The translations under genes were made by a program, and so were the position numbers. Positions 40,045 to 42,313 of a stretch of DNA of 64,000 nucleotides are shown here, in pieces (the first letter of the stretch is position 1; each line of letters begins with the position of its first letter). Origin of the DNA: Halobellus clavatus (GTDB lineage: Archaea > Halobacteriota > Halobacteria > Halobacteriales > Haloferacaceae); contig NZ_FNPB01000001.1 in NCBI RefSeq assembly GCF_900107195.1, forward strand, positions 186,001 through 250,000, read 5' to 3'. Below the pieces are notes generated by a model. It had not been told where the DNA came from and did no database searches. It saw only the letters and a list, made by a program, of their open reading frames with translations.

Positions 40045-41247
40045 CTATCGAATGACGTCGACGCCGTGCTGTGTTTCGCGCTGTTCTTTGCCGCCATCGG
40101 ACTGCCAGGAACCGCCGGTCGCAGTCGATCCGGAGGAGGTTCCCCCCTGCGCGAACTCGGCGTTCTCACTCGCGTCGAACTCCGAAGCTTCCAGGCTCTC
40201 TCTTGAGCGATCGGCCTGCTTCTGCGTCGACGGGCCGAGCACCTGTGCGGACTGGACGCCGGTCATAATCGCCATCACGCGGACTTTCCCCTTGTACTCG
40301 TCACGGATGCGAGCGCCCCAGATGACGTTCGCGCGCGCCTCGAGGCGCTCGGTGATGTTGTTGGCGATGCCCTCGGCCTCTTTCAGTGTGAGGTCGGGGC
40401 CGCCAGTGATGTGAACCAGGCCGCCGGAGGCGCCGCGGTAATCGACGTCCAGCAGCGGGTGGTTCATCGCGTCGTTGACGACTTCCTGCGTCTTGTTCTT
40501 GTCCTGGGTCTGACCGACGAGCATCACCGCGACGCCGCCCTGGTCCATAATCGTGGACATGTCCGCGTAGTCCAGGTTGATGAGCGAGGGCTGGGTGATG
40601 GTCTCGGAGATTCCCTTTACCGTCTCGGCGATGATCTGATCCATCACCGAGAACGCCTTCCCGATCGGGAGGTTGGGGACGTAATCGAGCAGGCGGTTGT
40701 TGTCGAGGACGATGATCGAGTCGGCTTCGTTGCGAAGCTTCTCGAGTCCTTCCTCGGCTTTGACCGTCCGCGCGCGCTCGACGTTGAACGGCGTCGAGAC
40801 CATCCCGACGACGATCGCGCCCTGTTCTTTCGCGATCTTCGAGACGACGGGGGCCGCACCGGTGCCGGTGCCGCCGCCCATCCCCGCGGTGACGAAGACC
40901 AGGTCGGCCTCGCCGAGGACTTCCTTGATCGTCCCCTGGGCCATCTCGGTCGCCCGCTCACCCATCGAGGGATCGCCGCCGGCACCGAGTCCCTGCGTCA
41001 GCGATTTGCCGACGAGGATCTTCGTGTCCGCCTCGACCATCTTGAGGTGCTGCTTGTCGGTGTTGATCGCCACCGTGTCAGCGCCCTCGACGCCGATGTT
41101 GTAGAGACGATTGACGGTGTTGTTTCCGGCGCCACCGCAACCGACGATGACGATGCGGGGACTCCCGAACTCGTCGCCGTCTGGGCTGTCGGCGGCGTCG
41201 CGTTCCTCCTCGTCGCGTTCCATCGCCTCTCTGACAATGTCCTGCAT
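40045..41247 (-). CDS. ftsZ2: tubulin-like cell-division protein FtsZ2
   Basis: 400 residues. The GTPase core contains [13 protein letters not shown] near 36, the tubulin signature [14 protein letters not shown] near 124, T5 [12 protein letters not shown] and the T7-loop region [17 protein letters not shown] near 220 with the catalytic Asp. The N-terminus [20 protein letters not shown] and a Gln/Ser-rich C-terminal tail are as in haloarchaeal FtsZ2, which acts in constriction after FtsZ1. The immediately upstream CdrS gene (4 bp gap) supports FtsZ2 over FtsZ1. Expression is expected to be controlled by CdrS and CdrL. Confidence 0.9.
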
Positions 41248-41250
41248 CGT

Positions 41251-41427
41251 TTACACCTTGGCCCAGTGCTTGGTCGGTGAGTCGCGGTTCTCCGGCTGCT
41301 GTTCGTTGAGCATCTCGCGGACGGCCGAGCGAATGGCTTCGGACCGGTTCGGGAACTCCCCGGTCTCGACCATCTGTTCGACCTCCTCGATCTGCTGCTT
41401 CGGAATTCGTAGTGTCACACGCTCCAT
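41251..41427 (-). CDS. cdrS: short ribbon-helix-helix regulator CdrS
   Basis: 58 residues with ATG at 41427: [20 protein letters not shown] followed by [18 protein letters not shown], a textbook ribbon-helix-helix (beta strand with TLRIP, turn NRSEAIR). The start was taken 19 codons inside a longer frame because the upstream part lies in the operator region. CdrS is known in haloarchaea as the RHH protein co-transcribed with ftsZ2 and controlling cell division. The gene is separated from ftsZ2 by 3 bp. Confidence 0.9.
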
Positions 41428-41442
41428 TGTTGCATTCCCCCG

Positions 41443-41478
41443 GTAAGACGGCGCGCACACCCTGTGCGAACGTCTTAC
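41443..41478. promoter_or_regulatory. candidate RHH operator, wide dyad in the cdrS leader
   Basis: GTAAGACG (41443-41450) and its exact inverse CGTCTTAC (41471-41478), separated by 20 bp, lie 16-51 bp upstream of the cdrS ATG. The two half-sites equal those of the tighter dyad at 41529-41546. They may bind an RHH dimer pair or form a hairpin in the mRNA leader. Confidence 0.5.
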
Positions 41479-41528
41479 ATCCACGAAAACGGAAGCCAGA
41501 GGGCATCTCGCCCGCTTCCGTCGGTTCT

Positions 41529-41546
41529 GTAAGACGACCGTCTTAC
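41529..41546. promoter_or_regulatory. candidate RHH operator at the cdrS transcription start
   Basis: Perfect inverted repeat GTAAGACG-AC-CGTCTTAC, 8-bp arms and 2-bp spacer. On the minus strand it lies 27-49 bp downstream of the TATA element at 41573-41578, i.e. over the expected transcription start of cdrS-ftsZ2, where a bound protein would repress. CdrL or CdrS are the natural candidates. Confidence 0.6.
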
Positions 41547-41572
41547 GCGAGAGTTACCACAGACTGATACGT

Positions 41573-41578
41573 TATAAA
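41573..41578 (-). promoter_or_regulatory. TATA box of the cdrS-ftsZ2 operon
   Basis: On the minus strand this reads TTTATA within CATTTATAAC, in an AT-rich pocket of otherwise GC-rich DNA. It predicts transcription start near 41550, giving a leader of about 120 nt before the cdrS ATG. Confidence 0.55.
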
Positions 41579-41591
41579 TGTACCGACGGTC

Positions 41592-41598
41592 GTAAGAC
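41592..41598. promoter_or_regulatory. third GTAAGAC half-site, upstream of the cdrS TATA box
   Basis: An isolated GTAAGAC half-site lies about 14 bp beyond the TATA element, in the position of a BRE or activator site. Together with the two dyads it makes five copies of the heptamer in 160 bp. Confidence 0.42.
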
Positions 41599-41637: not shown

Positions 41638-42204
41638 TTACGTTCGTTCGAGCACGTCGGCCGCAGAGGTTCGCCGGCCGCAGCTGGGGCAGAACGCCCA
41701 GTCGGAGCGGAGTTCGTCGCCGCATTCGCAGAACACGCGGTGGGAGGCCTTTTCACCGCAGTTCGGGCAGTAAACGTGGTCAGAGCCCACGTTTTCGCCA
41801 CATTTGTCACACGTCTTCTCGTGTCCCTCGCGCGCGTCCACGTCGAGCTCGTCGCGTGTCTTACGCTCAGCCGAGTCGACCCCACGGGCTTCAACGCCGT
41901 CGTTTTCGACCGTTTCGGATGTTTGCGCGCCGTCTACAGTGACGTTGACGTTCAGGTCGCGCGCAGGACGCGGACGCTCACGTCCGACGAGTTCGTCGAG
42001 TCGTTCGGTTACGAGTTCGTCCACGCGTTCACGGATGACGTCGTCGACGGTGTCAGACGTGGTCGGGGCGTCCGCAGACACCTCACGGTCCGCGCCGTCG
42101 AGGTACGTGCGCAGCGCGTCGCGCATCGCCTCGCTCTTGGAGGTCTCCAGCGCCTCCAACCGCTCGACGAGATCGTCGTCGGCACGGAACGTGATCTTAC
42201 TCAT
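41638..42204 (-). CDS. cdrL: long ribbon-helix-helix/zinc-ribbon regulator CdrL
   Basis: 188 residues, ATG at 42204. Residues 1-42 form an RHH domain (SKITFRADDDLVERLEALET then KSEAMRDALRTYL). A linker with a coiled-coil-like stretch (VIRERVDELVTERLDELVG) leads to two C-terminal zinc ribbons, CDKCGENVGSDHVYCPNCG near 131 and CECGDELRSDWAFCPSCG near 159. This matches the larger RHH protein encoded upstream of cdrS-ftsZ2 in haloarchaea. It would bind the GTAAGAC dyads located between the two genes. The frame is open further upstream, but Met-Ser-Lys at 42204 is the RHH start. Confidence 0.85.
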   Translation of the reverse strand: MSKITFRADDDLVERLEALETSKSEAMRDALRTYLDGADREVSADAPTTSDTVDDVIRERVDELVTERLDELVGRERPRPARDLNVNVTVDGAQTSETVENDGVEARGVDSAERKTRDELDVDAREGHEKTCDKCGENVGSDHVYCPNCGEKASHRVFCECGDELRSDWAFCPSCGRRTSAADVLERT

Positions 42205-42313
42205 CGGTTCAACATATGTGACACAGTATTTGAATCTTCCTTCGTGTCTGACGGCTGTCTGTCGCTCCGCGGACGCCGGCAAATTCAAGTCGACTTTCGT
42301 CGATGCACTCGTC

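Follow-up and report, generated by a model that had tools for sequence, protein, structure and literature searches.

The cdrS-ftsZ2 promoter of Halobellus clavatus contains an array of GTAAGAC heptamers which, judged by its conservation and layout, is almost certainly a protein-binding operator. In the explanation that fits best, the array would be a conserved operator with several sites for ribbon-helix-helix (RHH) proteins, setting the level of cdrS-ftsZ2 transcription and tied into a feedback loop of CdrS and CdrL that uses two operator codes. Taken as a whole, we regard this explanation as about an even bet; the conservation of the array, its geometry, its uniqueness and its difference from GTCWGAC sites are direct observations.

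The window (i.e., the whole stretch of DNA analysed, 64,000 nucleotides) contains the following genes and sites at this locus:

40045 to 41247, minus strand: ftsZ2, identified as FtsZ
41251 to 41427, minus strand: cdrS, a small RHH regulator (NCBIfam NF058555)
41443 to 41449, minus strand: leader heptamer nearest to the cdrS start, reading GTCTTAC on the coding strand and 15 nt from the ATG
41472 to 41478, minus strand: leader heptamer lying farther upstream of cdrS, reading GTAAGAC on the coding strand
41529 to 41546, no strand assigned: core dyad, GTAAGAC-N4-GTCTTAC, located at the predicted start site, with 11 bp from one heptamer centre to the other
41573 to 41578, minus strand: predicted cdrS-ftsZ2 TATA box, TTTATA, read from the sequence
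41592 to 41598, minus strand: putative operator half-site, reading GTCTTAC on the coding strand, adjoining the upstream side of the BRE/TATA, 52 bp before the start of the dyad
41638 to 42204, minus strand: cdrL, with an RHH domain, CdrL_M and a double zinc ribbon
41858 to 41864, minus strand: sixth GTAAGAC, inside cdrL (codons CGT AAG ACA), at a distance of 318 bp from the dyad on its upstream side
42246 to 42263, no strand assigned: putative CdrS-type site GTCTGAC-GGCT-GTCTGTC, directly upstream of the cdrL BRE/TATA

The gap between cdrL and cdrS is 210 bp and holds five of the heptamers, listed here with the strand that reads GTAAGAC: 41443-41449 (+), 41472-41478 (-), 41529-41535 (+), 41540-41546 (-) and 41592-41598 (+). 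These are the five copies that a preliminary description had placed within 41443-41598, and its positions are all correct. The perfect 18-bp dyad that it described is real, with 8-bp arms at 41529-41536 and 41539-41546 separated by 2 bp, as is the wide dyad in the leader (8-bp arms 41443-41450 and 41471-41478, 20 bp apart), and the single site beyond the TATA box is found at 41592-41598. The core dyad begins approximately 30 bp downstream of the centre of TTTATA, which places it on the expected start site or a little beyond. Between the leader heptamer at 41443-41449 and the cdrS ATG (window 41428-41450) there is a conserved G-rich stretch, CGGGGGAATG, which is perhaps a Shine-Dalgarno-like element. 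As for the encoded proteins, CdrS is similar to the RHH domain of NikR, residues M1-T5 and R7-D9 of the CdrL strand are invariant among 35 diverse CdrLs, and the aCcr1 model matches the RHH domain of CdrL weakly, below the cut-off.

GTAAGAC occurs six times in the 64-kb window (five copies in the gap and one in cdrL), where 2.7 would be expected. For the five copies in the 210-bp gap the Poisson probability is ∼5e-13, or ∼1e-6 after correction for all heptamers and positions. In the class as a whole, the exact GTAAGAC-N4-GTCTTAC dyad is present in 309 of 391 genomes (301 of the 377 good ones) and in 72 of 86 genera. It is a single-copy element in each genome, with one visible exception (G083) that has two copies, and the reversed control pattern has a match in just one genome of the 391. 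Chance repeats are ruled out because the array is conserved across the class, and also by the cluster statistics and the clean reversed-pattern control.

The promoters were compared in a set of 170 distinct cdrS promoters, which were taken from 29 genomes lacking the exact N4 dyad, 30 genomes with it, family members and named species. (A CdrS search match, L093, is a paralogue and was excluded, and genome G118 gave no cdrS match.) A dyad with a spacer of N2 to N6 is present in 165 of these promoters, and close variants are found in the remaining five. The spacer is N4 in 136 of the 165, i.e., the heptamers are paired at 11 bp, and N4 is not a fixed spacing, as the exact N4 dyad is absent from 82 of the 391 genomes and those sampled mostly have N2-N6 dyads or close variants. 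In 139 of 147 promoters the dyad starts 29-31 bp from the TATA centre, and it therefore covers the transcript start. A heptamer upstream of the TATA box is kept in 151 of the 165, either as GTCTTAC 52-53 bp or as GTAAGAC 62-65 bp before the dyad; the two forms are the two arms of a single N4 dyad, and each lineage retains one arm or the other. In the leader, the ATG-side heptamer is found in 155 of the 165 promoters, 13-24 nt before the ATG, and the other leader heptamer is often degenerate (a match in 94 of these 155), with a start-to-start spacing of 25 to 37 bp for the pair. Three of the five promoters with close variants belong to Halobellus members (L064, L065 and L066), which have a tandem GTATGAC/GTAAGAC/GTATGAC in 10-bp steps instead of an inverted dyad, and their CdrL is diverged (45-48% identity). 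The preliminary description had proposed a search for the dyad in relatives with the same gene order, and it is present there. On the strength of this distribution, we consider that the array is real and is ancient within the haloarchaea.

The geometry of the array is that of an RHH operator, with promoter heptamers repeated at a fixed helical spacing. The operators of Arc, CopG, MetJ and NikR are likewise composed of short subsites, one per dimer, in phase. Each heptamer of the array would be covered by a single RHH dimer, and a pair of dimers spaced by 11 bp would occupy the core dyad at the start site. Archaeal sites directly upstream of the TATA box usually serve activation and those over the start usually repression, an argument from position that was also made in PMC8406309. 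The sites of the array lie on both sides, upstream of the TATA box (activator-like) and over the start and leader (repressor-like); the graded switch that the preliminary description suggested for cdrS-ftsZ2 is conjectural.

CdrL is likely a reader of the array, but not the exclusive one. The CdrL-CdrS-FtsZ2 system of Halobacterium salinarum shares its genes and their order (cdrL-cdrS-ftsZ2) with this locus, and CdrL occupies the promoter there; the main text of the paper names no DNA motif (PMC7439475). By ChIP-seq of CdrL-FLAG, the cdrS-ftsZ2 promoter is the only reproducible site in H. salinarum (PMC7439475), and this single peak is fitted by a dyad that likewise occurs once per genome. The control of cdrS-ftsZ2 by CdrL, which had been suggested in the preliminary description, is thus supported by the conserved sites, the RHH-type geometry and the ChIP occupancy; the part that does not stand is CdrL as sole reader, which is contradicted by retention of the dyad in genomes without CdrL. 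No CdrL was found in G016, G040, G206, G149 and G153 by CdrL profile and RHH-family searches, or in G058 and G148 by CdrL profile search, and the dyad is retained in G016, G040, G206, G148, G153 and G149, i.e., the site was not lost with CdrL. Approximately four CdrL-less lineages (g16, G206, g29 and G149) keep the array, which argues that CdrL is not its sole reader. Between G040 and G016 of lineage g16, the heptamer positions are identical at 35 of 35, versus 164 of 233 (70%) for the remaining positions. The heptamers thus seem to be under purifying selection in this CdrL-less lineage, on the assumption that CdrL was lost before the G040/G016 split, as is suggested by its absence from both.

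It is accordingly unlikely that CdrL alone binds the array as cooperative dimers and represses cdrS-ftsZ2, with CdrS uninvolved. This would agree with the one ChIP peak in H. salinarum (PMC7439475) and one dyad per genome, with the dominance of GTA arrays only in the class having CdrL, and with the lack of a peak at the cdrS promoter in the H. volcanii CdrS ChIP (PMC8406309), but not with dyads that are intact in g16, G206, g29 and G149 and apparently under selection in g16.

The heptamers that are apparently read by CdrS have a different third base. The published CdrS targets in Haloferax volcanii include ftsZ1, dacZ and psmB, and the motif of the CdrS regulon is symmetric and lies upstream of promoters including that of ftsZ1 (PMC8406309). 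We examined these targets in named Haloferax species, which stand in for H. volcanii. GTCAGAC or GTCTGAC is present at the ftsZ1 and dacZ promoters of all sampled species and at psmB in five of six, and we infer that GTCWGAC is the CdrS site because it is carried by these published target promoters. At the Haloferax ftsZ1 promoter, the GTC heptamers form an N4 dyad upstream of the TATA box, and exact GTCWGAC dyads are upstream of ftsZ1 in five genera besides Haloferax, in several genera ∼45-50 bp before the ftsZ1 start. In its symmetry and its place upstream of promoters, the published motif (PMC8406309) agrees with the GTCWGAC dyads at ftsZ1 and with the related heptamers at dacZ and psmB, whereas the array described here has A for C at the third base and covers the start and leader. 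All five gap copies have this A in place of the C of the putative CdrS operator, and the array thus appears to differ from the apparent CdrS site at one base only. The 170 haloarchaeal cdrS promoters contain 710 copies of GTAAGAC (6.9 expected) versus 29 of GTCWGAC. The H. volcanii CdrS ChIP gave 18 sites, with neither the cdrS nor the cdrL promoter among them (PMC8406309). The idea that CdrS might also act at this array is weakened by the absence of the cdrS promoter and by the apparent use of GTCWGAC by CdrS.

Exact GTCWGAC-N4-GTCWGAC dyads number 0-3 per haloarchaeal genome, which is fewer than the 18 CdrS ChIP sites. Besides ftsZ1, such dyads are near sepF, bactofilin, volactin, parA, archaellum genes and MCH, and they possibly mark a wider cytoskeleton and motility regulon. 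The distances are 34-132 bp before the MCH, ParA-like ATPase, archaellum DE, volactin and bactofilin genes (L346, L347, L355, L357, L341, L332). In the genome of the window, an exact GTCAGAC-N4-GTCTGAC lies directly upstream of sepF (L003, L372; G000:C22:403361-403378). Repression of cdrS in H. volcanii lowers sepF, and sepF is missing from the CdrS ChIP list. A GTCAGAC-N4-GTCAGAC in the same genome is 52 bp before a HerA-like ATPase gene and adjoins the end of a Y-family polymerase-like gene, both named by eye (L002, L342; G000:C12:166092-166109).

The cdrL promoter itself has sites of the GTC type. Of 158 distinct cdrL promoters, 97 have a GTC-type dyad, counted at ≥12 of 14 positions matching, directly before the BRE/TATA (0.35 expected). 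At both cdrL and cdrS a heptamer is found 11-13 bp before the TATA box, and the distance is similar at ftsZ1. The Haloferax cdrL promoter has a single GTCAGAC only, and the Natrialba-like genomes examined have no GTC site at cdrL. The loop may vary between lineages, because the H. volcanii ChIP lacks cdrL and Haloferax has the single GTCAGAC. In L044, L058, L145, L168 and L175, a GTATGAC is found downstream of the TATA box, ∼14 bp before the cdrL start codon, and this could represent autoregulation of cdrL.

The sixth GTAAGAC, at 41858-41864, was omitted from the preliminary description. It falls on codons for the peptide RKT, which is spelled CGT-AAG-AC[A/G] in 67 of the 68 distinct CdrL genes that encode RKT. 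Elsewhere in these genes Arg is encoded by CGT in 16.5% of cases and Thr by ACA in 9%, and this codon usage contradicts a coding coincidence. The sequence flanking the site shows no conservation. From its codon choice, we take it that the sixth heptamer is a DNA element within the cdrL coding region.

Outside the haloarchaea, GTCWGAC is found in 31 of 33 cdrS-ftsZ promoters of other Halobacteriota, methanogens included. These 33 promoters contain 60 copies of GTCWGAC (0.7 expected) and two of GTAAGAC. Of 58 GTCWGAC spacings, 55 are multiples of 11 bp, and with one mismatch allowed there are spacing peaks at 11, 22, 33, 44 and 55, with values near zero elsewhere; RHH dimers stacked along the DNA would be expected to give such phasing. 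Some of these arrays (L255-L287) run to many consecutive units. The methanogen arrays are most simply viewed as CdrS autoregulation, since CdrL has been reported from haloarchaea only (PMC7439475).

In the favored explanation, GTA-type heptamers would be read by CdrL where it is present, with an effect that is probably mainly repression, as judged from their position. A second RHH protein, most likely CdrS, may also use the GTA array, as is suggested because CdrL-less lineages retain it. CdrS would read GTCWGAC at ftsZ1, sepF and cdrL from an activator-like position, giving a negative feedback in which CdrS would raise CdrL and CdrL would lower cdrS-ftsZ2. The haloarchaeal GTA array would have taken the place of an ancestral GTCWGAC array, by which CdrS probably regulated its own operon, a state to which the methanogen promoters still point. 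Against this, the absence of the cdrS promoter from the H. volcanii CdrS ChIP (PMC8406309) argues against CdrS reading GTA in that species, and the absence of cdrL argues against the loop there; the activation of ftsZ2 by CdrS reported by Darnell et al. (PMC7439475) also counts against this explanation. Only tentatively do we suggest the fully closed form, with a pair of RHH paralogues whose operator codes differ at a single base, where CdrS activates cdrL, ftsZ1 and sepF, CdrL represses cdrS-ftsZ2, and an ancestral 11-bp CdrS array has been recoded. CdrL would then perhaps act as a dimer with CdrS on an asymmetric GTA-W-GAC site.

CdrS might instead be a general reader of both GTC and GTA sites, with the A as a tuned, weaker autoregulatory version and CdrL as a modulator or competitor. 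CdrS is the RHH protein encoded beside the array in every array-bearing genome, and the promoters of methanogens, which have no CdrL, bear phased CdrS-type arrays. We find this reading doubtful, as the third-base A is essentially invariant and does not drift, which argues for specific recognition, and the CdrS ChIP list has no peak at the cdrS promoter (PMC8406309).

Another reader, such as a NikR-like protein as a third haloarchaeal RHH protein, is very unlikely, although a NikR-like protein is present in all CdrL-less genomes checked. The strand of E. coli NikR has R3 and T5, and the haloarchaeal strand, MTVVSVSMP, is without them. The E. coli recognition sequence, GTATGA-N16-TCATAC (PMC7055735), has a half-site close to GTAWGAC, but the N16 spacing is not found in the array, where the core is N4 and the leader spacing, at 25-37 bp, varies by 12 bp. 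CdrS and CdrL themselves lack the nickel-binding domain of NikR, and the 11-bp pairs differ from the widely spaced NikR halves. Finally, it is extremely improbable that the leader repeats act mainly as an RNA hairpin governing cdrS translation: the arms are complementary and lie ahead of the G-rich, Shine-Dalgarno-like stretch, and the H. salinarum operon shows signs of post-transcriptional control (PMC8303175), but the right arm is constant across promoters in which the left arm is often degenerate (61 of 155), a pattern that preserves no pairing and shows no compensatory change, and the heptamer is also conserved upstream of the TATA box, outside the transcript, in either orientation.

The CdrS and CdrL regulators and the contact of CdrL with the cdrS-ftsZ2 promoter were already known. 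To the H. salinarum system, the present analysis adds the heptamer array and the fact that it is unique, the site within cdrL, the retention of the array in genomes without CdrL, and the GTC site in the cdrL promoter. The literature searched, with subscription journals outside its coverage, gave no haloarchaeal report of these heptamers among the papers listed, and in it we did not find the sites, the arrangement of two codes, the phasing of the methanogen arrays or the cdrL site. The aCcr1 protein of Saccharolobus is also an archaeal RHH regulator of division genes (PMC7617429), but that system uses a different division machinery (cdv genes).

Very few regulators are known for archaeal division, whose timing is still poorly understood, and CdrS and CdrL are two of them. 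A class-wide, single-copy operator offers an exact target for mutation, and the one-base difference between the cdrS array and the ftsZ1, sepF and cdrL sites makes the CdrS/CdrL wiring testable. The phased methanogen arrays suggest that this control of ftsZ is older than the haloarchaea, and the closed loop, if true, could time or limit division.
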